Virus record (IMG/VR): IMGVR_UViG_3300043424_000614
Location: 1-22,134 of that record
Length of the DNA: 22,134 nucleotides
Reading direction: 5' to 3' (one strand)
Origin: a virus
Shown here in pieces: positions 1,456 to 16,393 of this stretch. Each line of letters starts with the position of its first letter. Position 1 is the first letter of the stretch. The translations under genes and the position numbers were made by a program. Under the pieces are notes generated by a model, which saw only the letters and a list, made by a program, of their open reading frames with translations, did not search any database and was not told the origin of the DNA.

Positions 1456-1875
1456 TTATTGTATATTTAGGAAAGATTTCGGAGCCTTTCCAATTCTAAG
1501 GTTTAAAATGCCATTATATGATCCTTCAATTAATAAAACATCTCTAGCCATTTGTTCTTTAGCTTCGAAATAACTTAATTCCCATTTAGAATTACAAAAT
1601 CTAAGGATTTTAAAGGTAAAATTTTCTTTTCCGTATTTTTTAATATCCTCTAAAAGGTCATTAGACGATCCTGTATAAATTTTCCAGTCAGATTCTTTGT
1701 GGTCAATACGATTACGTGTTTTGCCTTTTAAGGGTTTTCGTTTAATTTTACGTAAACATTGTTTTTTACCAATATAAAACTTTCCAGTAACTGTATTAGT
1801 AATTTCGTAAATAAATCCAAAAAATTCATTTGGGCAATAAAGTCCTTCAGATAATGTCCAATGACCTAAATCCAT
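1456..1875 (-). CDS. GIY-YIG-type endonuclease-like protein
   Basis: The N-terminal half has the GIY-YIG core in variant form: GFIYEITN (residues 20-27) supplies the GIY strand and GKFYIGKKQ (31-39) the YIG strand. SDWKIYTGSSNDL (62-74), the Glu of SYFEAKEQ (101-108) and the Asn of SYNGILNLRIGK (119-130) fit the later catalytic and structural motifs. At 139 residues it is essentially a lone nuclease domain with no separate DNA-recognition domain. Similar short proteins occur in many T4-like phages, where they are often annotated as Seg-like or GIY-YIG nucleases. Whether it acts as a homing enzyme, a repair nuclease or on host DNA is not visible. Its ATG overlaps the previous stop by one base (TAATG), so translation is probably coupled. 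Confidence 0.75.
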   Translation of the reverse strand: MDLGHWTLSEGLYCPNEFFGFIYEITNTVTGKFYIGKKQCLRKIKRKPLKGKTRNRIDHKESDWKIYTGSSNDLLEDIKKYGKENFTFKILRFCNSKWELSYFEAKEQMARDVLLIEGSYNGILNLRIGKAPKSFLNIQ

Positions 1876-2075
1876 TATCTTTTCTTTCTTCTTTTATTTT
1901 TTTTATTAAAGGGTACTCTTTTTTGAATTTTTTTACCAAAAATGCTAAAAGGTATTCTTGTATCGCCTGCAGTATTGTCTCCGTAAGGTTTAGATGCGTT
2001 AGGCCCTAAAACAGAACCTTCACCACCAGCCATATTTCCTTCTTCTTTTAAAAAAAATTGTTTGAAAGATTTCAT
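1875..2075 (-). CDS. Small basic-tailed protein with possible prohead-protease site
   Basis: This 66-residue protein begins MKSFKQFFLKEEGNMAGG. An MKSFKxFxxE-like start is recurrent among T4-like structural or head-associated proteins. L-K-E at residues 9-11 fits the L/I-x-E cleavage consensus of the T4 gp21 prohead protease. The middle is Gly/Asn/Asp-rich and probably disordered. The last 20 residues are strongly basic (VPFNKKNKRRKKR at the end), suggesting binding to DNA or to an acidic partner. A packaged internal or head protein is a plausible guess, not a proven role. It is first in the minus-strand operon, 20 bases behind a NATAAATA late promoter motif, which agrees with late expression. 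The message carries no Shine-Dalgarno sequence. Confidence 0.7.
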   Translation of the reverse strand: MKSFKQFFLKEEGNMAGGEGSVLGPNASKPYGDNTAGDTRIPFSIFGKKIQKRVPFNKKNKRRKKR

Positions 2076-2089
2076 TTTGGGGTAATAAT
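2062..2089 (+). promoter_or_regulatory. Possible sigma70-like early promoter for uvsY
   Basis: TTGAAA at 2062-2067 and AATAAT at 2084-2089 are separated by 16 bases. Each matches five of six bases of the sigma70 -35 and -10 boxes. The element lies in the only space available before uvsY and overlaps the beginning of the divergent 66-residue gene. In such AT-rich DNA this quality of match can occur by chance. Confidence 0.3.
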
Positions 2090-2095
2090 AAAAAC

Positions 2096-2103
2096 TATTT
2101 ATG
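2096..2103 (-). promoter_or_regulatory. T4-like late promoter motif (CATAAATA) for the minus-strand operon
   Basis: The minus strand reads CATAAATAG, ending 20 bases before the ATG at 2075. This matches NATAAATA and would start transcription about 13 bases before the gene. The motif overlaps the ATG of the divergent uvsY gene. A gene 55-type late sigma factor is encoded in this window, so the element has a matching regulator nearby. Confidence 0.6.
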
Positions 2104-2520
2104 GATGATCAAAAAGAATCTGCTGCTTCTTTGTTCGAAAAATATGAACAAGAAATTAAAAAATACGTAACTGTTGATGAATTTAATATGAAACAAATTC
2201 AAATGGATTTACCTGCAACTAGACACTATTGGGTAGGTCGTTTGATGTTTCATAAACAAGAAATCAATAAACTTAAAAAATTACGCAAACAAGCTCAAGT
2301 AAAAATTACAGAAAAGATGCAAGAAGAATCTCCCGTAGGACTGACACATAAAACGGTTTACGCTGCTTCCGATAATCACCCTATTATTGTTAAAATAGAT
2401 GAACAAATTGCGGAGAATGAACTTCTTGTAGAATACTTGACTAAAATTGAAAGTAATTTTAGGTCTATTTCGTTTGATTTAAAAAACTTAATAGAAATAA
2501 CTAAGCTCGAGACGACTTAA
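2101..2520 (+). CDS. uvsY: UvsY-like recombination mediator
   Basis: UvsY loads the UvsX recombinase onto single-stranded DNA coated with the gp32 protein. The 139-residue length is almost the same as T4 UvsY (137). The protein is largely helical and charged. A central helix, residues about 37-68, carries ATRHYWVGRLMFHKQEINKL followed by the basic run KKLRKQAQVK, fitting the DNA-binding helix of the family. The segment SDNHPIIVKIDEQIAENELL (91-110) corresponds to the next conserved block. Direct placement before uvsW, as in the T4 uvsY-uvsW cluster, is strong support. The ATG at 2101 is 25 bases from the divergent gene and lacks a Shine-Dalgarno site; uvsW follows after 2 bases. Sequence similarity to T4 UvsY is low, so the call rests on size, pattern and neighbourhood. 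Confidence 0.8.
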   Translation: MDDQKESAASLFEKYEQEIKKYVTVDEFNMKQIQMDLPATRHYWVGRLMFHKQEINKLKKLRKQAQVKITEKMQEESPVGLTHKTVYAASDNHPIIVKIDEQIAENELLVEYLTKIESNFRSISFDLKNLIEITKLETT

Positions 2521-2522
2521 CC

Positions 2523-3968
2523 ATGACTGAAATTATTGTAGATTACGATTCAAGTAGAAAGAAAGGGGTTTTAATAACAGATTATCTTCCAGTCATCAGA
2601 GAACATTTTTCAGTAGAAGATAAAGATCAAAATTTTAAAAGAAGATTTTCTGTGGGGTATCGACCACCAACTCGAAAATATGTAATAACTCCGCAAGGAC
2701 GTTTTGAACCTCGATTTATTTTTACTATCATAGATTTTTTAAAAGATCAAAAAATACCATTTAATATCACATTAAAAGACTCTTTCAAAGATATTATTAA
2801 AACCCCTCCTCTAGAAACAAAATTAGCAAAATTAAATTTACCTCTTAGAGATTATCAAGAAGAAACTGTATTAGCAGCTCTGGAAAGTAAATCGGGAATT
2901 ATTTTACTTCCCACTTCTGCAGGTAAAACTTTAGTTATGGCTACTTTAATTTCTTCTGTATTAAATCAGCAAGATCTTAAAACTCTAATTCTAGTTCCTA
3001 ATTTACAATTAGTAACCCAATCCCATTCTGATTTTATTGAGTACGGTATACCGAAAGAAGATGTAACTATGTGGACTGGAAAACATGAACCCAATCCAGA
3101 TGCTAAAATTTTTATTTCAAATGTTCAAATTTTACAGTCAGAAAAACAAGATTTATCTTTATTAAAAACTATTGGTCTTTTAATAGTAGATGAGGTTCAT
3201 GTATGCAAACGATCTAATTTGATTAATAAAATTATAGATCAAATTCCAGCCATTTATCGGTTTGGTTTAACAGGAACATTGCCCGATAATAATTTGGATC
3301 AGTGGAATGTTTTAGGTAAATTTGGGAAAATTATCTATAAAAAGAAATCTTATGATTTAAGAGAACAAAATTATATCACTCAAGTAGTTGTAGCTATTTT
3401 AAAATTACTTTATAACAACCTACCAGACTTTTCTCCCAAATCAGCTTCAAATCCTATTCAAGCTTATGAAGAAGAAATTCAATTTCTACAAACTAATAAA
3501 TTTAGAAATTCAGTTATTACTAAAATTGTTAACAAAGTAGATAAAAACACTCTTATATTAGTAGATAGAATTATTCACGGAGAAGAATTACTTCGCGTAT
3601 TACAAAATAACACAGATAAAACCGTATATTTTGTACATGGAAATGTGGATGTAGAAGAAAGAGAAGAAATTAGAAAATTAATGGAAGAACAAGATAATGT
3701 AGTGTGTATTGCCATCTCTAAAATATTTTCTACGGGTATTAATATTAAAAATCTTCACAACATTATTTTTGCTGCCATAGGAAAAGCCAAGATTAAAATT
3801 ATTCAATCTATTGGAAGAACCTTACGCAAACATGCTTCTAAGAAAAGAGCGACTATTTTCGATATTTGGGACAATTTAAAATACGGTAACAGTCATATTA
3901 TGGAAAGAATGTCTCTTTATGACGAAGAAAAAATACCTTACACCACCACAGAAATAAAAGAAAGTTGA
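2523..3968 (+). CDS. uvsW: UvsW-like superfamily 2 DNA/RNA helicase
   Basis: UvsW unwinds branched DNA such as stalled forks, D-loops and R-loops, and in T4 it helps shift replication from origin- to recombination-dependent initiation. All core SF2 motifs are visible: motif Ia region LRDYQEETVLAAL (108-120), Walker A LPTSAGKT (129-136), motif II DEVH (223-226), motif III LTGTLP (249-254), motif V STGINI (403-408) and motif VI QSIGRTLR (428-435). The N-terminal roughly 100 residues precede the helicase core as in T4 UvsW. The length, 481 residues, is close to the T4 protein (about 500). It begins 2 bases after uvsY, so the two are surely co-transcribed, and gene 55 follows. Confidence 0.95.
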   Translation: MTEIIVDYDSSRKKGVLITDYLPVIREHFSVEDKDQNFKRRFSVGYRPPTRKYVITPQGRFEPRFIFTIIDFLKDQKIPFNITLKDSFKDIIKTPPLETKLAKLNLPLRDYQEETVLAALESKSGIILLPTSAGKTLVMATLISSVLNQQDLKTLILVPNLQLVTQSHSDFIEYGIPKEDVTMWTGKHEPNPDAKIFISNVQILQSEKQDLSLLKTIGLLIVDEVHVCKRSNLINKIIDQIPAIYRFGLTGTLPDNNLDQWNVLGKFGKIIYKKKSYDLREQNYITQVVVAILKLLYNNLPDFSPKSASNPIQAYEEEIQFLQTNKFRNSVITKIVNKVDKNTLILVDRIIHGEELLRVLQNNTDKTVYFVHGNVDVEEREEIRKLMEEQDNVVCIAISKIFSTGINIKNLHNIIFAAIGKAKIKIIQSIGRTLRKHASKKRATIFDIWDNLKYGNSHIMERMSLYDEEKIPYTTTEIKES

Positions 3969-4006
3969 TTAAAACAAAAATAATCCTATTATAGAAAAAT
4001 ATTTTT

Positions 4007-4555
4007 ATGGCAAGAAAAAAGAAAAGTGATTTTGATGAAAACGGAGAGTTTGATATTGCAGCTTTCCTTAATGAAAAACCCAAAAAAAGAATTCGTCGAA
4101 CTAAAGAAGAATTAAAACCAAATTACGTTGACCCTAAAGAAATGGAAGATCTTATCAGATCTTACTATAAAGACGGTTACCTAGATCCTAACCTAGCTGA
4201 TATGATTCAAAAAATTGCTACGAGATTGGGATATGCTCATAATTTTTTAAGATATTCTTACAAAGAAGAAATGATTGGTGATGCTATCATTAAAATGATA
4301 ACCGCACTCACTAGAAAAAGATTTAAATGTGATTCCGGATATAATCCGTTTTCATACTTTACTAAAGTTGCATATAGAGCATTTCAAAATAGAATTAAAA
4401 AAGAGAAAAAGGAACATGAAACTCTTCAAAAATATCAAGATGAGGTTTATTCTATTTTGACTGAGTCTGGAAGTATACCCCACCAAAAAAATACCAGATA
4501 TGAAAAATATAATGAAGATAGTAATTCTTCATTTGTGCAGTATAATAATTTTTAA
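4007..4555 (+). CDS. 55: Late sigma factor, gp55-like
   Basis: In T4, gp55 replaces the host sigma factor on RNA polymerase and reads the TATAAATA late promoters. This protein has 182 residues against 185 in T4. The sigma region 2-like part is clear: YKEEMIGDAIIKMI (85-98) and NPFSYFTKVAYRAFQNRI (113-130), followed by KKEKKE, all closely paralleled in T4 gp55. The N-terminus is a basic, Lys/Arg-rich extension (residues 1-36). T4 gp55 ends in a hydrophobic sliding-clamp-binding motif (SLDFLYE); here the C-terminus is SNSSFVQYNNF, only a weak match. A TTGATT-N16-TATTAT element at 3965-3992 might be its own promoter. The gene abuts 47 exactly. No co-activator gp33 gene was recognised in the window. 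Confidence 0.92.
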   Translation: MARKKKSDFDENGEFDIAAFLNEKPKKRIRRTKEELKPNYVDPKEMEDLIRSYYKDGYLDPNLADMIQKIATRLGYAHNFLRYSYKEEMIGDAIIKMITALTRKRFKCDSGYNPFSYFTKVAYRAFQNRIKKEKKEHETLQKYQDEVYSILTESGSIPHQKNTRYEKYNEDSNSSFVQYNNF

Positions 4556-5623
4556 ATGATTGATACTTTTTTTGACGAGAAACAAATAGCGTTGTTCAGT
4601 GACATCCATATTGGAGTTCATAGAGATTCTCCTGTATGGCATCAAATTGCTTTGGAATGGACTGATTGGTTTGTTGAAGAAGTAAAATCTCGCAATATTA
4701 AAAATGTTCTTTTTTGTGGAGATTTTTTTCATAATCGTTCTTCTGTAGATTTAACAACATTACAAACAGGAGCAAAAATTATTGAAAAATTAAAAGACTT
4801 TAACATGATTATGTTAGCTGGTAATCATGATAGTTATTATAAAAATAATGCTTCTATCAATTCATTATCTCCTTTTAGAGGAAAGAAAAACATTTTCGTA
4901 GTCGATGAAACACCTTTAATATTGAATGGTAAAATTAAAGTATGTCTCTGTCCGTGGGGAACAGAAATACAAAGTATTCCTGAATGTGATTTATTAGCAG
5001 GTCATTTTGAAATCGTAAATTTCAAAATGAATCCTCATAAAGTTTGCGATCACGGTTTGGATTCTAACAATCTTTTAGATAAGGCAAAGTTAGTTATTTC
5101 TGGGCACTTTCATTTAAGAGAACATAGAAAATATCCTAACGGTAAAAGTATTCTTTACTTGGGTTCCCCTTATGAAATGGATTTTGGAGAAAGAGGTCAG
5201 ATTAAAGGTATTTATTTTTTAAATACAGATACTTTAGAAGTAGAATTATTAGAAAACCAATTAACACCTAAACATATTAAAATTAAAGTGTCTGATCTTC
5301 TTAGTGGTGTTATCAAACCAGATTCTTTACCAAAACTTCTAAAAAATAATTTTATAGCAGTTGATGTGGATAAAAAAATGGATACTCAAACATTAGATTT
5401 GATTATTTCCAAATTTGCTCAACACCAACCTAAACATGTAAGAACAGATTTTAATATTTTTGAACAAATGCAATTATCTGCTACAGAAATAGAAGAATTT
5501 AGTTTTGATATTGATAAGGCTTTATTAGAATTTGTCGAATTAATTGATACTCAAGTTTCTAAAAAAGAAATTTTGGACAAATGTTTAGAATTATATAAAA
5601 TATCTATTACACAAAATGAGTAA
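4556..5623 (+). CDS. 47: Recombination nuclease subunit gp47 (Mre11-like)
   Basis: Gp47 is the nuclease half of the Mre11/Rad50-like gp46-gp47 complex, which resects DNA ends for recombination and helps degrade host DNA. The calcineurin-type phosphoesterase motifs are all present: D-x-H at 16-18 in FSDIHIG, GDFFHN (55-60), GNHD (89-92), the metal-binding GH at 149-150 and GHFH (183-186), followed by LYLGSPYEMDFGE near 200-212. The length of 355 residues is close to T4 gp47 (339). It starts directly after the gene 55 stop. Its last 8 bases overlap the first gene of the glycosyltransferase cassette, so its normal partner gene 46 lies 7.7 kb further on. Confidence 0.95.
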   Translation: MIDTFFDEKQIALFSDIHIGVHRDSPVWHQIALEWTDWFVEEVKSRNIKNVLFCGDFFHNRSSVDLTTLQTGAKIIEKLKDFNMIMLAGNHDSYYKNNASINSLSPFRGKKNIFVVDETPLILNGKIKVCLCPWGTEIQSIPECDLLAGHFEIVNFKMNPHKVCDHGLDSNNLLDKAKLVISGHFHLREHRKYPNGKSILYLGSPYEMDFGERGQIKGIYFLNTDTLEVELLENQLTPKHIKIKVSDLLSGVIKPDSLPKLLKNNFIAVDVDKKMDTQTLDLIISKFAQHQPKHVRTDFNIFEQMQLSATEIEEFSFDIDKALLEFVELIDTQVSKKEILDKCLELYKISITQNE

Positions 5624-6413
5624 AATAGGAATAGCTGTTATAACCTGTGATAGACTGAATTATGTCGATAATCTTTTATCATCATTAAATCCTCAAAAAT
5701 TTTTAAGATTTGTTGTTAATGATGGTGAGCAAGATTTATCCGATATAAAACATGCTATACATACAATAAAAACACCAAAACCAAGAAGCGGGGTTGGTGT
5801 AGCAAAAAATTTAGCCATTAAAGCATTAATGGCTATTGGTTATGATTATATTTTTATTTTAGAGGATGATATTGTTATTAAAGATGAAAATGTTTTTGAA
5901 AAATATATTGAAGCGTCTAGAATATCAGGTATTCAGCATTTTAACTTTGCTTTTCATGGTAATGATAATTACCTACCAGATGGCTCGCCTGCTGTTAAGC
6001 TCCAAGTAGAATATTCTAAAGATTGTGTAATTTGTCTGTATCCTAATGTTTATGGTGCACTTTCTTTTTACACAAAAAAATGTATTGAAGAATGCGGATA
6101 CATGGATGAACATTATTATAATGCATTAGAACATGTAGATCACACTAATAAAATTATTCAAAAGAAAATGCATCCACCATTTAGATGGTTTGCTGATATT
6201 GCTGATAGTTCAAAATATATTTCTGAACAAGATAGTTCCCATTCAGGATCTACTATTCGTAAAGATCAATCATGGATTCAAAATTTTCATAATATGGCGG
6301 ATTATTTTGCTAAACAAAATGGATTTGATGTTAGAAATCCTTATACCAAAATAGCAACAAAAGAAGAGGTTATTGAAAATTTAAAAGAAATTAAAACACT
6401 ATGGAAAAAATAG
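5616..6413 (+). CDS. GT-A (GT2-like) glycosyltransferase, tandem copy 1
   Basis: The first 100 residues look like a GT-A-fold nucleotide-sugar transferase: an opening strand GIAVITCDRLNYVDNLLSSL (5-24), a FVVNDG turn (32-37), GVGVAKNLAIKAL (59-71) and the metal-binding FILEDDIVI (80-88), whose two Asp residues (84-85) act as the DxD-type site. The C-terminal half holds RWFADIADS, also found as WWFADITNS in the next gene. The two proteins share the layout throughout, including KYIEAS after the metal site and a K-E-E-V-I tail, so they look like a tandem duplication. Donor and acceptor sugars cannot be inferred. The ATG overlaps the end of gene 47 by 8 bases, and the gene overlaps its copy by 13 bases. 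Confidence 0.85.
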   Translation: MSKIGIAVITCDRLNYVDNLLSSLNPQKFLRFVVNDGEQDLSDIKHAIHTIKTPKPRSGVGVAKNLAIKALMAIGYDYIFILEDDIVIKDENVFEKYIEASRISGIQHFNFAFHGNDNYLPDGSPAVKLQVEYSKDCVICLYPNVYGALSFYTKKCIEECGYMDEHYYNALEHVDHTNKIIQKKMHPPFRWFADIADSSKYISEQDSSHSGSTIRKDQSWIQNFHNMADYFAKQNGFDVRNPYTKIATKEEVIENLKEIKTLWKK

Positions 6414-7171
6414 GAGTAGGAATTGTAACCTATAATTCAGAAAATTATTACAAAGATCTTTATAATAGTATTGATCAAACTAAAATTGACCATTTAGTTA
6501 CTGTGAATGGGGGAAATGAATATTCAAAAAAATATGGAAATCATTGGATTCAGCACAATGTAAACAAATATCCAGCTGTATGTAGAAATGATGCGATTAC
6601 TGCACTGTTAAAAGAAAATTGTGATCATATTTTTATTATTGAAGATGATATGATTATTAACGATTCAGATATATTTAAAAAATATATCGAAGCTTCCAAA
6701 ACATCCGGATTGAAATATTTTTCATTTGTTTCTACATCGTGGGAGTCTGGTGAACCTTGGAATAGAACACCTCGATTAGTAGTAGAATATAGTAAAGAAG
6801 TTAGTGTTTCTTTTTATAAAAATATGTGCAATGAATTTACCTATCATCATAAATCTTGTTATGATAAAGTAGGTTTTTATGATTCTCAATTCAGAGATCC
6901 ATTTGATATTGATATGGCATATAGAGAATCACAACAGGATTATGCAGCTCCTTTTTGGTGGTTTGCTGACATTACCAATTCAGACTTTTATATTAAAAAC
7001 AATCCAGTAGCTGTTAGTCGGCTTCAAAGTGAAAGACCTGACGGTAATAGAGAACAAAGAATTCAAGAACAATGGAAAATGTTTATTCAAAAACATGGAT
7101 TGATGGTCAATCAAATTCCATCTGTTTCAAAAGAAGAAGTCATTAAAAAATTAAAACAAATAAAACCATGA
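6401..7171 (+). CDS. GT-A (GT2-like) glycosyltransferase, tandem copy 2
   Basis: This is a paralogue of the preceding gene. It opens with GVGIVTYNSENYYKDLYNSI (5-24) and has VTVNGG (33-38), CRNDAITALL (61-70) and the metal-binding FIIEDDMII (78-86), followed by KYIEASKTSG as in copy 1. The aromatic block PFWWFADITNSDFY is conserved too, and the tail SKEEVIKKLKQIK parallels TKEEVIENLKEIK of copy 1. Divergence is substantial, so the duplication is old or the two genes were acquired as a pair. They may add different sugars in sequence (inference). The start overlaps the previous stop by 13 bases, and the end overlaps the next gene in an ATGA junction. Confidence 0.85.
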   Translation: MEKIGVGIVTYNSENYYKDLYNSIDQTKIDHLVTVNGGNEYSKKYGNHWIQHNVNKYPAVCRNDAITALLKENCDHIFIIEDDMIINDSDIFKKYIEASKTSGLKYFSFVSTSWESGEPWNRTPRLVVEYSKEVSVSFYKNMCNEFTYHHKSCYDKVGFYDSQFRDPFDIDMAYRESQQDYAAPFWWFADITNSDFYIKNNPVAVSRLQSERPDGNREQRIQEQWKMFIQKHGLMVNQIPSVSKEEVIKKLKQIKP

Positions 7172-8820
7172 AAATTTCAATAGGTATTAACGGTTATAAA
7201 GAACACAAAGACCTTGAAAAGAGAGAAAAATTTTGTATCGAAAGTTTATTAAAAAACAAAAAAGAAAATGTAAATCTTTATAATGTTTGTTTTACTGATG
7301 AAAATATAAAATATGATTCTTTTGAAACATTAAATCAATTGTGTTTATATTCTAATAGTATCATAAAAAACTATTTTTCACACGAAGGTCTTCACAAAGA
7401 ATATGAACAAAGAAAGTCAGATATTGACAATAATAATAAAAAATTACCTTCAGTAAAAGAAATTTTTGATGTATTATCACATACTGATTGCGATTATTTT
7501 TTATTTTTAAACAATGATATTATTTTATCGAATAGATTTTTAAAGAATATTGACTCTTCAGTTGATTGTTATGCCGTATCTCGTATGCATATACATGACA
7601 TTGAATCTTTAAATGAGGAGCCTAAATTAGAATCTTATTCTGTACATGGATTTGATGCATTTTTAATAAAAAAAGAAACGTGGTTAAAAATTAGAAATAA
7701 TTTTCCTGATTTAATTCTCGGTAGATTTTATTGGGATACCTATTTCGTCACAAAATTTAAATTATTATGTAATACTAAATTTGTTAATGATTTACCTCCT
7801 GTATGTTTCCACATAGAACATAATAGTAAATCCTCTGAAAATACTATTGAAAATTATTACAACGAAGATGTATTTAAAAGAGATTTGATTATAGGTCATT
7901 TGTGGTTCAGTTATGTACAAAACGTACCATTAAAAAGACCTACAATTAATAATTGCAAGTGGTATCAACCTTTTCCGAATGAAAAAGAAATTGAGGAAAA
8001 ACACTTCAATCAATTAAATCAAAAAACACTCTTTGATCCTAATTTTGAAAAATTACCAATTACTAATAAAAATGATTTTGATTTGTTCATTCCAGTGGCA
8101 CCAAAAGATGAAATTAAATTGTCTTTTGTCATAGAATACGCAAATAAACATTTAAAACATAATAAAATATTTGTTTGCTCACCACACAATATAACAAATA
8201 AAATTACAGATTCAAAAATTTCTTACATTAATGACAATGATGTTTTAAATATTCCAGACAAAAGTTTTATTTCATTTAGACCTAATTGGACATATCAACA
8301 ATTTTTGAAATTATTTTTTAATTTCAGTGAATCACAATATTACTTTGCTCTTGATGCTGATACAATTATTATAAAGGATTTACCTTTATTTGAAAATGAA
8401 CATCCCATTTGGTATTATGGATGGCAACAAAATCATTTTCCTTACTTTCTTTTTAATAAAAAGTTTTTTAATCTAGATAAAAGTCTTAAACATACAGGCA
8501 TCGGTGATTTAGGTCTTTTCAATAAAAATATTACACAAACGTTTTTAAATTACACAGGATGTAAATCTCCTAAAGAATTGTTGCTTAAAACTGGACCACA
8601 AATGAATGTAGTGTTTCATTTTTCTGAATATGAAACATACGCAAATTTTACCAATACCCATTATACAGGACTTTACAAATTCAAACATCTAGAACAAGAA
8701 AATATGGGAAGAGACCTAAATCAAGGCGAAAGTTGGTCAAAAGAAGATATTAAACAAGTAATTGAAAATTATAAAAGTTCTTCTAAATCTATATTATCTC
8801 TTCACTCATGGAAAATATGA
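7168..8820 (+). CDS. Two-domain glycosyltransferase-like protein
   Basis: At 550 residues this is about twice the size of its neighbours and seems to join two transferase-like modules. The N-terminal module (about 1-250) starts SIGINGYKEH and has FLFLNNDIIL (111-120) where GT2 enzymes carry DxD, followed by RFYWDTYFV (186-194). The C-terminal module (about 303-550) starts DFDLFIPVAPKDE and has a clear DxD in YYFALDADTIIIKDLP (391-406), then WYYGWQQNHFPYF and TGIGDLGLFNK. This second module resembles the DUF6492-type GT-A proteins (from memory). A fusion of two enzymes acting in sequence is the simplest reading. The first site has N-N-D rather than D-x-D, which many GT2 enzymes tolerate. The start overlaps the upstream gene as ATGA. 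Confidence 0.8.
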   Translation: MKISIGINGYKEHKDLEKREKFCIESLLKNKKENVNLYNVCFTDENIKYDSFETLNQLCLYSNSIIKNYFSHEGLHKEYEQRKSDIDNNNKKLPSVKEIFDVLSHTDCDYFLFLNNDIILSNRFLKNIDSSVDCYAVSRMHIHDIESLNEEPKLESYSVHGFDAFLIKKETWLKIRNNFPDLILGRFYWDTYFVTKFKLLCNTKFVNDLPPVCFHIEHNSKSSENTIENYYNEDVFKRDLIIGHLWFSYVQNVPLKRPTINNCKWYQPFPNEKEIEEKHFNQLNQKTLFDPNFEKLPITNKNDFDLFIPVAPKDEIKLSFVIEYANKHLKHNKIFVCSPHNITNKITDSKISYINDNDVLNIPDKSFISFRPNWTYQQFLKLFFNFSESQYYFALDADTIIIKDLPLFENEHPIWYYGWQQNHFPYFLFNKKFFNLDKSLKHTGIGDLGLFNKNITQTFLNYTGCKSPKELLLKTGPQMNVVFHFSEYETYANFTNTHYTGLYKFKHLEQENMGRDLNQGESWSKEDIKQVIENYKSSSKSILSLHSWKI

Positions 8821-9686
8821 AATCAATTTATGTACATTTGAGACCAGATCAATTTACATTTTCAAGTGAATTTGTACATTCAAATTATGTATACACCGAC
8901 TTACCTTCTTATGCTAATGTAAGTATTAAACAGACAAAAAAATTTTTAAGTGGTGATCCTATATTATTAGATAATTCTTTTATCAATAATGAAATAAGTG
9001 ATGAAATAGAAACATTTTTTAAACTATGTAAAGAAAAATTTCCTTCCTTTTATAAGGACCCATTTTGGTTTTTAACACTAGCTAGATTATATGTGGTTTT
9101 TCTTTTTTGTAAGAAAGAAAATGTAAATGAATTTATTCATTTAGAATATGACAATTTAATCTATTCAGACTTTACACAATTAAAAGATTTAAAACAGTCA
9201 ATATATTTTACACAAGTCGGTCCTTATTGTAGTTCTGCTGGTTTTGTTTATTGTAACTCTTTAGAATCTTTTGAAAAATTTATTATTAAACTCCAACAAT
9301 TAATAAACAAAGGAGAAAATATTGTACGCAAATTTACACAATATGATCAATTAAGTGAAATGATTATGTTAGATTTAATTTTTACTCATACGAAAGTTAT
9401 GAATTATCTCCCGATTTTACCTTTCGGAGATTGCAGTAAAAATTTTAATGAACTTCAAATTTTATTCGATAGCGCATCTTATGGTCAATATTTAGGAGGT
9501 ACAAATAACGGAAACGGTAAAGGGTGGTATGGTTTGCATCATTATGTGGGCAGAGAAATTGCTAATAAGTCCATCGATGTTATATTTGAAAATAATAAAC
9601 CTTTTGTTTTATTTGACAGTAAAAAAATACCTATTGCTAATTTACATATTCATTCTAAAAAATTAGAAAATTTTATTTGTGAATAG
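8808..9686 (+). CDS. Glycosyltransferase-like protein (GT-A type, putative)
   Basis: The 292-residue protein has FIHLEYDNLIYSDFTQLK (109-126), in which E-Y-D-N sits after a hydrophobic strand as expected for a GT-A metal site. AGFVYCNSLESFEKF follows (144-158). The later block FDSASYGQYLGG with a Gly/Asn-rich loop resembles the acceptor region of poorly characterised viral and bacterial glycosyltransferases. There is no clear assignment to a numbered family. The first ATG at 8808 overlaps the upstream gene by 13 bases. The in-frame ATG at 8817 (protein MKSIYVHLRPDQF) would give a tidy ATGA overlap and may be the true start. Its position inside the cassette supports a role in glycan building. 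Confidence 0.65.
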   Translation: MENMKSIYVHLRPDQFTFSSEFVHSNYVYTDLPSYANVSIKQTKKFLSGDPILLDNSFINNEISDEIETFFKLCKEKFPSFYKDPFWFLTLARLYVVFLFCKKENVNEFIHLEYDNLIYSDFTQLKDLKQSIYFTQVGPYCSSAGFVYCNSLESFEKFIIKLQQLINKGENIVRKFTQYDQLSEMIMLDLIFTHTKVMNYLPILPFGDCSKNFNELQILFDSASYGQYLGGTNNGNGKGWYGLHHYVGREIANKSIDVIFENNKPFVLFDSKKIPIANLHIHSKKLENFICE

Positions 9687-10464
9687 AGAAAATATAATAA
9701 CAGGAAATGCTTTTAAAAGTATTGCTGATGATTTTTTAGATGAAGAAAAAACTTTTTTGGATTTATCTAAAAAACCTAAAATTATTTTTCTTAAAACTGA
9801 TTGGATAGAATTATTTAAAAATAAAATTCTTCCTAAAATAAATTATCAATTTAGTTTAATAACACATAATGCGGATCGTTCATGTCCTTCTGGTAATTTT
9901 GATTTATTAGAGGACAACAAACTTATAAAATGGTTTGGAATGAATTGTGATATTACACATCCTAAACTTCAACCGATTCCTATTGGTATAGCGAATGAAA
10001 AGTGGTCACACGGGAATAAAGATATTTTACTTAAAATCATTAATGAAAATAATGAAAAGAAAAATTTTGTATATTCCAACTTTGATGTTTCTACAAATTA
10101 TAATAAAAGAAACAATACTTTAAATTGGATAAAAACACAGACTTATATAGACCAAGAAAGATCAAAATTATCTTTTGAAAATTATTTAAAAAAATTAAGC
10201 ACATACAAATATGTTATATCTCCTGCAGGTAATAGTATAGATTGTCACCGAATTTGGGAATCAATTTATTTAAATGTCATTCCTATAATAGAAAAACATG
10301 TAGCATTAGAGTTTTTTTATGATTTAACTATTTTGGTGGTAGATTCTTTCGAACAAATAACCGAAAAAATGTTAAATGATGAATTTATAAAAATAAAATC
10401 CAAAAACAAACAATTATCAGATTTTATTTTTTATAAAAAAATGATACGTTATGAAAAAAATTAA
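9679..10464 (+). CDS. Exostosin-like (GT47-type) glycosyltransferase
   Basis: The key signature is YVISPAGNSIDCHRIWESIY (178-197) followed by LNVIPII. It matches the nucleotide-sugar-binding core of exostosin-like, GT-B-fold enzymes, where S-P-x-G-x-x-x-D-x-x-R-x-W-E is typical. The upstream segment NFVYSNFDVSTNYNKRN (129-145) fits the usual lead-in, and LQPIPIGIANEKWSHGNK (97-114) the N-terminal part. The start is GTG at 9679, overlapping the previous gene by 8 bases. The downstream overlap is 14 bases. The sugar it transfers is unknown. Confidence 0.75.
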   Translation: MNRENIITGNAFKSIADDFLDEEKTFLDLSKKPKIIFLKTDWIELFKNKILPKINYQFSLITHNADRSCPSGNFDLLEDNKLIKWFGMNCDITHPKLQPIPIGIANEKWSHGNKDILLKIINENNEKKNFVYSNFDVSTNYNKRNNTLNWIKTQTYIDQERSKLSFENYLKKLSTYKYVISPAGNSIDCHRIWESIYLNVIPIIEKHVALEFFYDLTILVVDSFEQITEKMLNDEFIKIKSKNKQLSDFIFYKKMIRYEKN

Positions 10465-11125
10465 AATTTGCGTATGTCATTATCCGCCTCTTGAGGATAG
10501 AAAAAAATATTTAGATTCAGTTCTCCCTACATTACAAATACCGTTTGAGTTTTATAGCAAATTTAATAGAGAAAATATTAACGACTACGCAAATTTATTT
10601 TCACAGGATCCTGTTATTCTTTCTCAAAGAGGATGGTCTGGTAATCCCCCGAATATGTCACCGTCTATAAAAGCGACTACATTAGAACACGCTAAAATCT
10701 ATGAAGATATCTTAGAACAAAATTATGATTATTTTGCAATTTTAGAAGACGATGCTGTCTTAACAGATGATTTTAAAAATAAATTTTTTAATATAATTGA
10801 TAACTTACCAAATGATTGGGATGTATTACATTTTAGCAATGGTTGTGGTGGTCGACCACATTTAAAGTGCAATGATGGTACTAATTTGGTTAAAATGGAA
10901 TGTAAAAGAAGTTGGACAGCAAGTGGATATTTAATAACTAAAAAAACAGCAAAAAAATTCTTAGACTGCATTTACCCTATTGTATTACCCATTGATTTTG
11001 AATTAAATTTTATCCAAAAACATTTAAATATGAATGTTTTTTGGGCTGTTGATCCTCTTGTATTTGAAGGTTCAAATCCAGTAGCAGGTAAACATCATAA
11101 ATACGGATCAAGTCAAATAAGATAA
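10451..11125 (+). CDS. GT25-type (LPS glycosyltransferase-like) protein
   Basis: GT25 enzymes add sugars, often galactose, to lipopolysaccharide or to collagen-type hydroxylysine. The hallmarks are here: FEFYSKFNREN (32-42), a conserved middle SIKATTLEHAKIYEDIL (72-88) where classic members read SLGEIACTLSH, the metal site FAILEDDAVL (95-104), the block WDVLHFSN (123-130), TASGYLITKKTAKKFL (156-171) and LPIDFELN (179-186), where the family usually has PVDW. All catalytic blocks are in order and the length (224 residues) is normal. The start overlaps the preceding gene by 14 bases, and the stop shares one base with the next ATG (TAATG). Confidence 0.88.
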   Translation: MKKIKICVCHYPPLEDRKKYLDSVLPTLQIPFEFYSKFNRENINDYANLFSQDPVILSQRGWSGNPPNMSPSIKATTLEHAKIYEDILEQNYDYFAILEDDAVLTDDFKNKFFNIIDNLPNDWDVLHFSNGCGGRPHLKCNDGTNLVKMECKRSWTASGYLITKKTAKKFLDCIYPIVLPIDFELNFIQKHLNMNVFWAVDPLVFEGSNPVAGKHHKYGSSQIR

Positions 11126-11829
11126 TGGAAACTATTTTAGTAAAACAACATATAGGTTTAGGTGATTATTTGATTTGTAATGGTTTAATAAGAATTTTAG
11201 CAGAAAAATATAATATCATCTTACCTGTACCTACAAATTATTTGACTAGTGTTGAATTCATGTATCGTGATATATCTAATATTTCATGTGTGCGTCTTGA
11301 ACACGTCAACTATAATGACTATAAAAATATTAAGGTAATTGGTTTTGATTGGTCTGAACATCCAACAAAATACCCAGAAGAAAATTTTGAACAAATGTTT
11401 TATCGACATGCCGACATTCCATTTGAATGTAAGAAAACACATTTTAAAGTTTTAAGAGATGTCGAAAGAGAAAAAAATTTATTTAATTCATTAAATTTAA
11501 TTCCTAAATCTTATTCATTTTTACACGAATATAATGCTGGAGATTCAAATTCAAGTGTAAAAATAAATAGAAATTTAATAACAAATCAAAATATAATATC
11601 CGTAGGTGTAAATGTTTTTTCGCAAAATATTTTTGATTACATAACACTTATAAATGAAGCAGCTGAGGTTCATGTTATAGAGTCAAGTATATTTTGTTTA
11701 ATTGATTTGTGTCAAGAAATTATAAATTCTAATCTTTTTTGCCATCAATACGCGAAAAGAGACAAAAACCTTTTAGGTAAAGGAAATTGGATGATACCAA
11801 AAAATTGCAAAAATTGGAAAGTTTTTTAA
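11125..11829 (+). CDS. GT-B glycosyltransferase-like protein, possibly GT9-related
   Basis: The N-terminus VKQHIGLGDYLICNGLIRIL (6-25) is the first strand-loop-helix of GT-B-fold enzymes in the ADP-heptose transferase (GT9) style. The C-terminal part has FDYITLINEAAEVHVIESSI, followed by FCLIDLC. This resembles the place where GT9 enzymes carry the donor-binding DSGPMH motif, here with E-S-S. At 234 residues it is shorter than classic GT9 proteins (about 320-350), so it could be a reduced version or a distant relative. The gene starts inside the stop of the GT25-like gene (TAATG) and ends 9 bases before the methyltransferase. Confidence 0.65.
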   Translation: METILVKQHIGLGDYLICNGLIRILAEKYNIILPVPTNYLTSVEFMYRDISNISCVRLEHVNYNDYKNIKVIGFDWSEHPTKYPEENFEQMFYRHADIPFECKKTHFKVLRDVEREKNLFNSLNLIPKSYSFLHEYNAGDSNSSVKINRNLITNQNIISVGVNVFSQNIFDYITLINEAAEVHVIESSIFCLIDLCQEIINSNLFCHQYAKRDKNLLGKGNWMIPKNCKNWKVF

Positions 11830-11838
11830 ATATGAATT

Positions 11839-12462
11839 ATGTTAGCTAATTATTTTAAAGACGATTTAGGAATTATACATCAAAAAGATATCAATAATGA
11901 TGTAAAATATGATAAGCAATACATCGATGAAAGATATCACCAATATCCTGAAAAATGTGTGAATATGTCACATTTAAGATTGGGATTTATTATAGGAGGT
12001 ATTCAAAGAACCCCTACATCTATTTTAGATGTAGGTTATGGTTCGGGTGATTTTTTAAAGGTATGCAAAAACATTATACCTAAATGTTACGGTAATGATG
12101 TAACTGGTTTACCCGTTCCTTCCGGAGTCGAATTTGTAGAAAATATATATGAAAATTTTTATGATGTAGTATGTTTTTTTGATGTTTTAGAACATTTTAC
12201 TGATATTAATGTAATAAAAAATATAAAATGTAATTTTATTAGTATTAGTGTTCCTTGGTGTCATTATTTTAATGATGAATGGTTTGAAAAATGGAAACAT
12301 CGTAGACCAGATGAACATTTACATCATTTTGATTTATCTTCTTTAACAAATTTTTTTAACGAATGTGGATTTGAATTAATATGTCATTCTAATATTGAAG
12401 ACGCTATTCGTAAAGACGTTGATAAAAATATACTTTCTTGTATTTTTAAAAACAAGAAATGA
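11839..12462 (+). CDS. SAM-dependent class I methyltransferase
   Basis: Motif I is clear, LDVGYGSGD (63-71), with the acidic end of strand 2 near YGNDVTGLP (84-92). YDVVCFFDVLEHF (108-120) is the motif of Methyltransf_23/UbiG-like enzymes. FISISVPWCHYF (133-144) and LHHFDLSSLTNFFNECGFEL (161-180) complete the Rossmann fold. The substrate is unknown. Its place among sugar-transfer genes suggests O-methylation of a sugar or capping of a glycan end (inference). The start is the ATG at 11839; an ATG at 11832 is out of frame and closes after five codons. The end overlaps the next gene as ATGA. Confidence 0.85.
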   Translation: MLANYFKDDLGIIHQKDINNDVKYDKQYIDERYHQYPEKCVNMSHLRLGFIIGGIQRTPTSILDVGYGSGDFLKVCKNIIPKCYGNDVTGLPVPSGVEFVENIYENFYDVVCFFDVLEHFTDINVIKNIKCNFISISVPWCHYFNDEWFEKWKHRRPDEHLHHFDLSSLTNFFNECGFELICHSNIEDAIRKDVDKNILSCIFKNKK

Positions 12463-13319
12463 AATTTAGTAGTAAAAATTTTGTAAACGGTTCTTTTTAT
12501 CTTTACGAAAAATTTAAAGATGATACCCCATTTGCTACTGGCAAAATTGGTAATTGTGAATTAATGTGCATTTACAATTATTTTTATTTTGAACATAAAA
12601 AAGAACCAATTCAGTGGTTTCCGAATGTAGTAGAAGAAACCTATAATAATACTGGTGTTTTTCCACAAACAGAACAAGCCCGAATTGAATTTGTTAATCA
12701 ATTAACAAGTGACCTAAAAGATATAGATTCTTTAGCTTGGTGGTCTATGTTTAATTTAGATTTTGAAGCACGATATATTAAAAAATATTCTCCTAATTGT
12801 GAATTATTGGATTTACAAAGTTTAGAACCTTTCTATTCTGGTTCACCGTGGACAGAACATTTAAAAGATAAAAAAGTTCTTGTTGTTTCTCCCTTTACAG
12901 AATCTATTCAAAAACAATATTGTATTAAAGATAAAATTTGGAAAGATCCTCGTATATTGCCCAGCTTTGAATTGTTAACTATAAAACATCAACATTCACC
13001 TGGAATACACAAACCAAGTCGTTACGCTTCTTGGAAAGAAATGGTTGAAGATATTAAAAGTCAAATGTCTTCAATAAATTATGATATATTGTTAGTTGGT
13101 GCTGGTGCCTCAGCATTGCCTTTAGTTGCTCATGCTAAACGTTCAGGTAAAAGGGGCATTCATTTAGGAGGACCATTACAACTCTTATTTGGTATTAAAG
13201 GAGGAAGATGGGACAATGGTCCAGTCGGTAAACATTTTTATAACGATTACTGGATTAGGCCTTCTATAGAAGAAACCCCTGAAAAGTTTAAAAACATCGA
13301 AGGTGGATGTTATTGGTGA
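12459..13319 (+). CDS. GT-D-like glycosyltransferase-fold protein (putative)
   Basis: The protein has two marks of the GT-D/DUF1792-type fold: an N-terminal GKIGNCELMC (28-37) at the place of the usual R-F-G-D-G-E metal motif, and a C-terminal block with DILLVGAGASALPLVAHAKR (209-228), then GIHLGGPLQLLFGIKGG (233-249). The latter is the G-A-G plus H-x-G-G-x-x-Q signature of this group. The usual D-x-E is replaced by N-C-E, so metal binding may be altered, though similar variants may exist. It is the last gene of the cassette; 30 bases separate it from gene 46. It overlaps the methyltransferase by 4 bases. Its sugar and acceptor are unknown. Confidence 0.65.
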   Translation: MKFSSKNFVNGSFYLYEKFKDDTPFATGKIGNCELMCIYNYFYFEHKKEPIQWFPNVVEETYNNTGVFPQTEQARIEFVNQLTSDLKDIDSLAWWSMFNLDFEARYIKKYSPNCELLDLQSLEPFYSGSPWTEHLKDKKVLVVSPFTESIQKQYCIKDKIWKDPRILPSFELLTIKHQHSPGIHKPSRYASWKEMVEDIKSQMSSINYDILLVGAGASALPLVAHAKRSGKRGIHLGGPLQLLFGIKGGRWDNGPVGKHFYNDYWIRPSIEETPEKFKNIEGGCYW

Positions 13320-13349: not shown

Positions 13350-15143
13350 GTGCATTTAGTAAATTTTAAAACTCTAGAAGTTAAAAATTTTCTTTCTATA
13401 GGAAATACTCCAGTAAATCTCAGTATTGAAAATGGTGTTAATATCATTACAGGAGTTAATTTGGATAAAGAAGATTCTAAAAATGGTGTTGGCAAATCTA
13501 CCATTATTGAAGCTCTTCATTTTGCTTTATTCGGTTCAACTATTAGAGAATTGAATAAAGACCTCATAATCAATTCTAAAACCAAAAAAGATTGCGAAGT
13601 AAAATTAACATTTGAAATTTGTAATAACGGAAACAAAGATCAATATCAAATTGTTAGAACTTTACAGCCTACTAAATGTTTTATAAGCAAAAATGATGAT
13701 GATGTAACTAGATCGACCTTGCCAAAAACTAATGAATTTATTTGTAAATTAATTCATTCTAACAGTAAAATATTCCAAAATTCTGTCATAATGACAATCA
13801 ACAATACTGTTCCTTTTATGGCACAGACTAAAGTTGATAAGAGAAAATTTATTGAAAGTATTTTAAATTTAGAAGTTTTTTCAGAAATGCTTTTAAAAGC
13901 AAGAGCGGAACATAACGAAACAAAAAGAGAGTATGAAATTTGTTTCGCGAAACACTCAGAAATAGAAAAGAATTATAATATTAACAAACAACAATTAGAT
14001 CTTTTTGAAGATAATAAAAATAACAAACTTTCAAATATTAGAAAAAAAATAGAAGACACTCTTTCTAAAATAGAAGAGTTTAAAAAATCATTTCATCAAA
14101 TTCCTGAAAATGTAGATCAATTATTTGATTCAAAAATTACTTTACTACAAAAAGAATTAAAAGAAATTAAAAATAAACATCAAAATATTTTTGAAAAAAT
14201 AACAGAATTTAAAACCTCCATTAAGCATCAAAAATCTTTACTTCAAGAAATTGGAAGTGTCGATGCTGTATGTTCAACATGTAACAGACCCTATTCTGAA
14301 GATGATATTAAACATAAAGAAGAAAACATTTTAAAAATTAATAATAAAATCAATGAGTTAACCGAAAAAAAAAGCAAAATTTCTTTGTCATTAGAGGAAA
14401 TAGAAAATACTCAAGAACAAAAAGAAAAAGAAATACAAGAAGTTAATTTAAAAAGACAAAAAATTCAACAATTCATTAAAGAAAATTCTAATATACAAAC
14501 AAAAATTACCTTTTTAATTGAAAATATTAAAGAATTTAAAAAAGATGAAAGTGACATTAAAGAAGAATCTAATGAGGTTTTAGAAAACATAGTTAAAACT
14601 CTTTCAGAAGATGTTAAAATACACAAAGATCAATTACAGACATTAGATAACACTTTGTCAGTTTTGGAATGTGTCAAATTTGTTGTTTCTGAAGAAGGTG
14701 TGAAGTCGTATATCGTCAGAAAAATATTAAAAGTTTTAAATTCCCGTTTAGCTTATTATTTGGAACAATTACAAGCTAACTGTTTATGTTCATTTAATGA
14801 ATATTTTGATGAAAATATTACAGATGAAAAAGGTGAAGCGCGTTCTTATTTCAATTTTTCTGGAGGAGAAAGAAAGAGAATTGATTTAGCATGTTTGTTT
14901 GCCTTCCTAGACATTCGTAGAATGCAAGGTGATATTCATTTTTCAACCATCTTCTATGATGAACTTTTGGATTCTTCATTAGATGATAAAGGAGTCGAAT
15001 TGGTATTAAAAATTTTAAGAGATCGTATGGAAAAATATAATGAAAATTGTTACATCATAACTCACAGAGGTACTACCGTTTTGGATAAAGCAGATAAAAT
15101 TATTATGCTTGAAAAGAAAAATGGGTTTACATACATAATTTAA
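13350..15143 (+). CDS. 46: Recombination nuclease subunit gp46 (Rad50-like ATPase)
   Basis: Gp46 is the ATPase and coiled-coil partner of gp47. Visible elements are Walker A in SKNGVGKSTIIEAL (43-56), a Q-loop region near 150-160, long charged coiled-coil segments (about 185-440) around the zinc hook CSTCNRPY (Cys308, Cys311), the ABC signature FSGGERKR (503-510), Walker B with D-loop IFYDELLDSSLD (534-545), and the H-loop in YIITHR (568-573). The start is GTG at 13350; it is forced, because an in-frame stop lies 12 bases upstream and no ATG intervenes. The length, 597 residues, is near T4 gp46 (560). Gene 47 lies 7.7 kb upstream, an unusual separation for a two-subunit enzyme. There is no Shine-Dalgarno site. 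Confidence 0.95.
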   Translation: MHLVNFKTLEVKNFLSIGNTPVNLSIENGVNIITGVNLDKEDSKNGVGKSTIIEALHFALFGSTIRELNKDLIINSKTKKDCEVKLTFEICNNGNKDQYQIVRTLQPTKCFISKNDDDVTRSTLPKTNEFICKLIHSNSKIFQNSVIMTINNTVPFMAQTKVDKRKFIESILNLEVFSEMLLKARAEHNETKREYEICFAKHSEIEKNYNINKQQLDLFEDNKNNKLSNIRKKIEDTLSKIEEFKKSFHQIPENVDQLFDSKITLLQKELKEIKNKHQNIFEKITEFKTSIKHQKSLLQEIGSVDAVCSTCNRPYSEDDIKHKEENILKINNKINELTEKKSKISLSLEEIENTQEQKEKEIQEVNLKRQKIQQFIKENSNIQTKITFLIENIKEFKKDESDIKEESNEVLENIVKTLSEDVKIHKDQLQTLDNTLSVLECVKFVVSEEGVKSYIVRKILKVLNSRLAYYLEQLQANCLCSFNEYFDENITDEKGEARSYFNFSGGERKRIDLACLFAFLDIRRMQGDIHFSTIFYDELLDSSLDDKGVELVLKILRDRMEKYNENCYIITHRGTTVLDKADKIIMLEKKNGFTYII

Positions 15144-15148
15144 ATAAA

Positions 15149-16393
15149 ATGCATAATTACATCTCAAAACAATCTGGTTTACCATTTATTCTAGGAAGTC
15201 CTATTGGTTTGCCCCCTAACATACCGGTTTCGACTCAAATTGCTAAAGTTAGACAAAATGGTAATTTACCTGAACCAGAAATGCCTGGTCAGAATTTACC
15301 CAGAGCAGTAAATTATTTAGCAGATTACGGCGGTTGTGCATTTTATAGATGCATGGCTCCAAATTCCGCATTAAATCTTTATCAAAAAGCAGTTATCCTT
15401 GAATTGACTACTATGGTATTGGATCCTAGATTCTATCAAAATATCAAAGCAGTCAAAATTCAAAGACAAGCTACACCACATCAAAGAGAATTTGTTAAAT
15501 TACTAAAAACACTTTCACAACAAAATGGGTTTAAACTCATTTATGAAATTGATGATTTAGTATTCCATGAAGATATTCCGGAATATAACAGAAATAAAAG
15601 TGCTTTCGTTTCTGAAGAAATAAGAACATCTATAATGGATATTATGAATATGTGTGACGAAATTACAGTCACGTGTGATTTCATGAGAGATTATTTTATT
15701 GAAAAAACAGGTAATAAAGCAGTAACCGTCATTCCAAATTATTTACAAAAAGGATGGTTTGAGCGATACTACAATTTATCTAATCTTCTTAAATCGTATG
15801 AGAAGAATAAAAAGAAACCAAAAATTTCTATTTTTGCTTCAGGTACACATGTTGACGTTACCAATAAAACCAATCAACAAGATGATTTTTCAAATATAGT
15901 ACAAGCAGTCATTAAAACGAGAACCATGTTTAAATGGCAATTTTATGGATGTTTCCCATTGCCTTTAAAACCATTTATTGATCGAGGTGAAATTGCTTTT
16001 TATCCTTGGGTGCCACTTCCAGAATTTCCAGCCACAATAGCTCAATCTGATACTCAACTCACTTTTGCGGCACTTGAGGATAATAATTTTAACAGAGCAA
16101 AGTCTAACATTAAATTAATTGAATCTGGTGCAATGGGTATACCCTGTGTGTGTCCAGATCTCTGCACATATAAAGATGCATTTTTGAAGTATAAAACCGG
16201 TGATGAATTTATCGACCAAATCAAATATGCTTTGAAGGATCAAACTCGATATGCAGACCTTTGCAAAAAATCTAAAGCTCATTCTGATAATTTTTGGTTA
16301 GAAGATGAAAAAAACCTAGGCAAACATTATGAAGCCTACTTCACGCCTTTTGGTTCGTCTGAAAGAAAATATCTTAAAGAATGTAATCCTTGA
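15149..16393 (+). CDS. GT4-like (GT-B) glycosyltransferase
   Basis: The 414-residue protein begins with a Pro/Gly/Asn-rich leader (1-50). An N-terminal Rossmann-like domain follows with RAVNYLADYGGCAFYRC (52-68), LIYEIDDLVF (130-139), EITVTCDFMRDYF (171-183) and VIPNYL (194-199). The C-terminal domain holds KISIFASGTH (225-234), WQFYGCFP (263-270) and the donor-binding FNRAKSNIKLIESGAMGIP (314-332) then CVCPD. The last block is the usual E-x(7)-E-like region of GT4 enzymes. It lies outside the main cassette, between 46 and 43, with only 5 bases after 46, and so is co-transcribed with replication genes. Target and sugar are unknown. Confidence 0.88.
   Translation: MHNYISKQSGLPFILGSPIGLPPNIPVSTQIAKVRQNGNLPEPEMPGQNLPRAVNYLADYGGCAFYRCMAPNSALNLYQKAVILELTTMVLDPRFYQNIKAVKIQRQATPHQREFVKLLKTLSQQNGFKLIYEIDDLVFHEDIPEYNRNKSAFVSEEIRTSIMDIMNMCDEITVTCDFMRDYFIEKTGNKAVTVIPNYLQKGWFERYYNLSNLLKSYEKNKKKPKISIFASGTHVDVTNKTNQQDDFSNIVQAVIKTRTMFKWQFYGCFPLPLKPFIDRGEIAFYPWVPLPEFPATIAQSDTQLTFAALEDNNFNRAKSNIKLIESGAMGIPCVCPDLCTYKDAFLKYKTGDEFIDQIKYALKDQTRYADLCKKSKAHSDNFWLEDEKNLGKHYEAYFTPFGSSERKYLKECNP

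Follow-up and report, generated by a model that had tools for sequence, protein, structure and literature searches.

A nine-gene cassette (c1 to c9) rich in glycosyltransferase (GT) genes lies between gp47 and gp46, the two subunit genes of a T4-like nuclease, in a 22,134-nucleotide (nt) stretch of virus DNA (IMG/VR record IMGVR_UViG_3300043424_000614, positions 1 to 22,134), the whole of which is referred to here as the window. The cassette is one example of an island made up of a constant starter pair, c1/c2, and distal genes that are exchanged as blocks between constant end genes, and most related phages in the database have such an island at this spot. The glycan locus is serotype-like and exchangeable, and many uncultured T4-like phages have it at one fixed position within their conserved replication module. 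It resembles a swappable kit for a sugar coat, one that probably acts on the particle proteins of the phage itself. The specific proposal that we tentatively favor, at somewhat less than an even chance, is that a soluble, exchangeable pathway attaches a glycan with a methyl cap to a virion protein. Should a virion protein indeed be the acceptor, the island would be the equivalent in bacterial viruses of the machinery for capsid glycans in chloroviruses, and the diversity of phage surface glycans, their acceptor, and their role in adsorption or predation would become directly testable.

The 47-46 interval of the window

The window holds a replication/recombination module of T4-like type, in the gene order uvsY, uvsW, gp55, gp47, the nine cassette genes, gp46, an additional glycosyltransferase gene (GT414), gp43, a TGT-like open reading frame (ORF), a kinase gene, a small ORF, and uvsX. 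The cassette occupies positions 5616-13319 and consists of nine plus-strand ORFs in one direction. The genes of the interval and its borders are:

4556..5623, plus strand: gp47 (SbcD-like nuclease subunit), left border (phrog_100, E 1.7e-68)
5616..6413, plus strand: c1, GT-A glycosyltransferase and constant opening gene of the island (phrog_2456, E 4.3e-26)
6401..7171, plus strand: c2, GT-A glycosyltransferase, paralogue of c1 and best-conserved cassette gene (structure model and PDB neighbors)
7168..8820, plus strand: c3, protein in two parts, probably two fused glycosyltransferases (parts encoded separately in relatives)
8808..9686, plus strand: c4, conserved cassette protein without family assignment
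9679..10464, plus strand: c5, GT114-type xylosyltransferase-like enzyme, GTG start (PDB 8q8i/8avq/8asa, A075L)
10451..11125, plus strand: c6, GT25 glycosyltransferase (PF01755, E 1.3e-18)
11125..11829, plus strand: c7, possible GT9-like glycosyltransferase (only an HxGLGD motif near the N terminus)
11839..12462, plus strand: c8, S-adenosylmethionine-dependent methyltransferase (PF13489, E 4.4e-15)
12459..13319, plus strand: c9, GT-D-like protein and right-hand anchor, retained in the closest relative (PF22882)
13350..15143, plus strand: gp46 (SbcC-like nuclease subunit), right border (phrog_77, E 2.1e-96)

The junctions, in nt and with overlaps as negative values, are gp47/c1 -8, c1/c2 -13, c2/c3 -4, c3/c4 -13, c4/c5 -8, c5/c6 -14, c6/c7 -1, c7/c8 +9, c8/c9 -4, and c9/gp46 +30. 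A first-pass annotation of this DNA had placed nine genes in the interval, with every internal junction overlapping or under 10 bases; the ORFs, the PHROG matches of the border genes, and independent contigs confirm the gene content, and seven of the eight internal junctions do overlap, with 9 nt at the remaining one. The same annotation had given the T4 interval a single very small ORF, where there are two, 46.1 and 46.2. T6 carries an 855-nt ORF between 46 and 46.1 (L183:17496-18350), thus the T-even 46-47 gap also accepts insertions.

A chimera or assembly artefact was rejected, since identical junctions occur in independent contigs. A second contig with 100% identity spans uvsY to c2, and independent contigs at 67-90% identity share the 8-nt gp47/c1 overlap; one of the latter has c9 (83%) next to gp46, with a 248-amino-acid (aa) gene between the two.

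A recurrent island with exchanged distal genes

A scan of IMG/VR with c2 gave 80 loci, which were reduced to 34 islands, including the window, by removal of duplicates. The 33 further non-redundant phage contigs have an island that begins at the identical place, and in the 14 relatives that also reach gene 46 the 47-46 interval measures 3.9-11.1 kb and holds 5-14 genes. Comparison of this interval between relatives therefore overturns the view of the cassette as an unusual one-off insertion, as an island is regularly found there. A literature search on glycosyltransferases with gp46, gp47, and uvsW, with subscription papers outside its range, returned no paper that describes this locus.

The islands encode 347 proteins in 129 families (single linkage at 35%). 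Families of c1/c2 are present in 31 of the 34 islands, c3 in 25, c4 in 16, c5 in 13, c9 in four, c8 in three, c6 in two, and c7 in one, and the c1-c2(-c3) order is constant. The representative proteins have Pfam matches to GT2, GT25, GT10, GT47-like enzymes, sugar methyltransferases, and sugar-nucleotide epimerases and dehydratases. With the closest long relative, L023 (3300032116_001024), nucleotide homology to the window extends over 1711-7165, is then missing except for one 312-nt patch, and begins again from 12457. These limits lie close to the end of c2 at 7171 and the start of c9 at 12459, so that the exchanged segment, c3-c8, has gene boundaries on both sides.

Unrelated genes might also gather loosely at a permissive insertion site and have no joint product. 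The 46-47 gap does take other inserts, such as the T6 ORF and, in G008, a relative at still greater distance, two non-GT genes that accompany a c1-like gene between 46 and 47. Against this, the island genes are co-directional, 284 of 326 island junctions overlap or lie within 10 nt, glycan functions predominate, and the order of the first genes is kept; we regard such a loose gathering as highly improbable.

The more distant relatives L012, L013, and L015 have no island, and their gp47 and gp46 genes share a 4-nt overlap. The two genes abut in G021 (236 kb), which has no island there and a c1-led cluster at another site. Clusters of a second type, in which c1 or c1-c2 come first and QueE and dTDP-glucose dehydratase genes are present, were observed at L051:4326-18255 and L089:6362-15187; the L089 cluster encodes an RfbH-like aminotransferase and the L051 cluster an AroB-like cyclase, and both adjoin an opposite-strand gene that is fibre-like in appearance.

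Enzymes encoded by the cassette

The two starter proteins, described in the first-pass annotation as GT2-like copies, are indeed paralogues with 32% identity, and the structure model of c2 (predicted local distance difference test, pLDDT, 90.9) has GT-A neighbors in the PDB; c2 also has an invariant EDD acidic motif. Searches of 50,697 phage records found no close relative of either protein, the best matches having 28% (c1) and 24% (c2) identity. In a set of 13 sequences, the c1 profile matches Myrna gp234 (E 3.1e-23; c2 profile, E 8.6e-11) and Tonenili gp127 (E 3.6e-22). The start of c1 is located 8 nt inside gp47 in the relatives as in the window. In L041 the two genes are fused in one 594-aa ORF, which is consistent with consecutive steps.

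The c5 protein aligns to the chlorovirus capsid-glycan xylosyltransferase A075L with 34% identity over 199 aa (E 5e-30). Five donor/catalytic residues were checked, and c5 retains each of them (A075L D73, N148, R158, N202, and R208 correspond to c5 D66, N134, R144, N185, and R191), with D66 and R191 invariant across 13 c5 proteins. The GT114 reaction is an inverting beta-xylosyl transfer to a fucose-containing acceptor, and the acceptor-contacting residues of A075L are partly changed in c5 (S72 to A, T112 to A). By sequence, c5 is a member of the GT114 family, with a GT-B fold; assignment as an exostosin of family GT47, in line with its earlier 'exostosin-like' label, was rejected, as this label goes back to an earlier family scheme, since corrected in the publication on A075L.

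The remaining assignments are of graded strength. The two-domain description of c3 is borne out by relatives that encode its parts separately, the N part standing alone in L006/L007 and the C part, which has a weak DUF6492 match, in G017. The GT25 and methyltransferase labels of c6 and c8 hold with the Pfam matches listed above, and the c6 profile also matches Che8 gp110 (E 3.9e-7) and Myrna gp238 (E 2.7e-5) in the set of 13 sequences. The PF22882 match of c9 (E 1.2e-5, 25.2 bits) falls just below the Pfam cut-off of 27, and its profile found nothing in the PDB; the GT-D-like label is kept in qualified form. For c7, the GT-B/GT9-like label retains its motif and lacks a profile match, including profile against PDB. 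The 'GT-A-like' label of c4 was dropped, as the window gene has no Pfam, PHROG, or PDB match and the search of its profile against the PDB was also empty. Thus the picture of one glycan-assembly unit with a methyl cap is solid for c1, c2, c5, c6, and c8, weaker for c3 and c9, and without an assignment for c4 and c7. The role of c8 is presumed to be that of a sugar O-methyl cap.

A virion protein as the favored acceptor

We propose that soluble enzymes in the host cytoplasm would assemble a surface-type glycan through a modular, exchangeable pathway. In this model c1 and then c2 would begin the chain, c3-c7 and c9 would lengthen it, c5 possibly by a xylose-like transfer, and c8 would methylate the glycan, with a phage virion protein as the most likely acceptor. 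Exchange of the distal block would then give related phages different outer glycans on a common inner part. The order of enzyme action, the sugar identities, and the acceptor are what we infer here.

Three tests bear on the target, which the first-pass annotation had left between virion protein, DNA, and host surface. The first is kinship: the relationship of c1/c2 and c6 to enzymes of Myrna, Tonenili, and Che8 favors a virion protein, and glycosylation of the Myrna and Che8 virions has been reported (PMC12363180). The role of A075L in chloroviruses is to build the glycan of the capsid protein VP54, a glycan that also receives terminal O-methyl groups from chlorovirus enzymes (PMC11571054, PMC9614988). 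Our tentative preference for a virion protein reflects the greater weight given to kinship among the three tests.

The second test is membrane topology. None of the 347 cassette proteins has at least two predicted membrane segments in a hydropathy scan, the only method used, compared with 56 of 1965 ORFs of at least 100 aa in the same loci. This argues against a complete lipid-carrier pathway and leaves protein or DNA as the target. New surface glycans usually need a polytopic membrane protein, while lipid-linked intermediates of the host could be lengthened by enzymes that are soluble. Early modification of the host envelope, at the lipopolysaccharide O-chain or core, to block superinfection is hence harder to reconcile with the absence of a polytopic flippase, polymerase, or Gtr-like protein among the cassette proteins. 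It would account for the GT25 and O-antigen-like sugar genes in the islands and for their apparent early expression, and the same interpretation has been proposed for pelagimyophage glycosyltransferases (PMC7029224); on balance we consider it unlikely.

The third test, timing of expression, points away from the virion. The T4 late promoter TATAAATA was dropped as a marker because only about a third of its copies lie upstream of an ORF, and a group motif was derived instead. This motif, (A/G)TAAGTA(T/A), is found upstream of the terminase (three genomes), portal, and head-tail adaptor genes in the G013, G017, G020, and G009 contigs, and is likely a late promoter that differs from T4 TATAAATA. 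Its ATAAGTA core has no match in the window, against 6.9 expected, and the motif is depleted in the islands (24 versus 74). This suggests early/middle expression with the replication genes rather than late expression with virion genes, which favors a target that is met early, for example DNA or the host. Further points weigh against a virion acceptor: GT family membership does not fix the acceptor, GT114 is found in bacteria too, no virion gene adjoins the cassette, and a c1 homologue without known function is present in the lambdoid phage HK542.

Possible DNA modification in the same module

The module also encodes a putative base-modifying enzyme:

19033-19899: TGT/DpdA-fold enzyme (PHROG without function; structure model pLDDT 84)

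The model is a TGT-like TIM barrel, and its top ten matches are TGT/DpdA entries with E 3.8e-7 to 1.1e-5, including DpdA 7ui4. In G004, G009, G010, and G014 the TGT/DpdA-like ORF is followed by a formyltransferase-like (PurN-like) gene and QueF, and QueC is present in G017 and G025. The neighborhood of this ORF suggests a (formyl-)preQ1-type DNA modification, and many of these phages may accordingly have 7-deazaguanine in their DNA.

A glycan on phage DNA bases would be a multi-step hypermodification against host nucleases, with a handle other than hydroxymethylcytosine. The position of the island in the replication/recombination module without late-promoter motifs is consistent with this, as are the T4 agt gene at the neighboring 47-55 junction, T4 bgt between 42 and uvsX, and the TGT/DpdA-fold enzyme with its QueF and formyltransferase partners in sister phages. 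Published phage glycosyltransferase sets also reportedly hypermodify DNA with diverse glycans (Pyle 2024). Against this reading, the thymidylate-synthase fold of the dCMP hydroxymethylase gp42 (PF00303) was found in none of 26 records searched and TET (PF12851) in none of 21, most records being fragments and the genome of the window incomplete; standard hydroxymethylcytosine glucosylation was provisionally set aside on this basis. The c1-c9 families do not match T4 alpha-GT, T4 beta-GT, or T6 TAGT, with profile values of E 0.009 or worse (13 sequences). Weak Pfam matches (E 0.03-0.04) had raised TAGT as a candidate for c1/c2, which was rejected because hhalign covers the acidic motif only (1% over 17 columns). 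T4- or T6-type DNA glucosylation is thus unsupported, and DNA as the target appears rather unlikely to us.

Two further genomes, G013 (211 kb) and G020 (163 kb), have the sugar island and no detected relative of the DpdA-like ORF, indicating that the two systems are separable, and a tie between them was rejected. A ThyX-like gene, recognized by motif, lies between gp43 and uvsX in these genomes (L113:15430-16071, minus strand; L121:17619-18257, plus strand), an interval known to hold base-modification genes in Tevenvirinae (PMC8056088). The presence of the island in these two genomes counts against DNA as the target. Oligosaccharide-bearing 7-deazaguanine DNA, with the glycan on bases inserted by the DpdA-fold enzyme of the module, is very unlikely in our estimation.

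Comparison with known systems

The PBCV-1 capsid-glycan machinery (A075L/GT114, A064R, A061L) resembles the cassette in its mostly soluble virus glycosyltransferases and O-methyltransferases, and in the kinship of c5 to A075L. It differs in that the cassette is a contiguous, exchangeable operon in the replication module of a bacterial phage, and in the partly replaced acceptor contacts. The mycobacteriophages Che8 (gp108-110) and Myrna (gp234/gp238) have small clusters of two or three glycosyltransferases in the same families as c1/c2 and c6, those of Myrna beside a virion gene, whereas the islands have 5 to 14 genes in the replication module.

The host recognition cluster of pelagimyophages, which are also T4-like, is likewise a hypervariable island that encodes several glycosyltransferases; however, it is in the structural region, where it lies with tail fibre genes between VrlC and gp14, and its description has no mention of gp46 or gp47 (PMC7029224). 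T4 agt/bgt and T6 ggt (TAGT) share the replication region, with agt adjoining gene 47, but have no sequence match to the cassette families, and no hydroxymethylcytosine pathway was found in the searched records of relatives. Bacterial O-antigen/serotype loci have the same constant ends, exchanged middle, and sugar-nucleotide and methyltransferase genes, while no lipid-carrier, flippase, or polymerase membrane proteins were seen in the islands.

Other features of the window

No match to the window was found among phage records by megablast, and a PADLOC run found nothing. A further glycosyltransferase gene follows gp46:

15149..16393, plus strand: GT414, additional GT-B-type glycosyltransferase between gp46 and gp43 (phrog_7162, E 1.9e-23)

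GT414 has no match in the phage collection and is retained in relatives both with and without the island (45% in L013, 44% in G021). A small minus-strand ORF (1456-1875) with a GIY-YIG-like N terminus is located upstream of uvsY in nearly all relatives. The uvsX gene is intact in the window, and in L007 (17618-20253) it is interrupted by a 356-aa ORF, which may be an intein, intron, or homing element.

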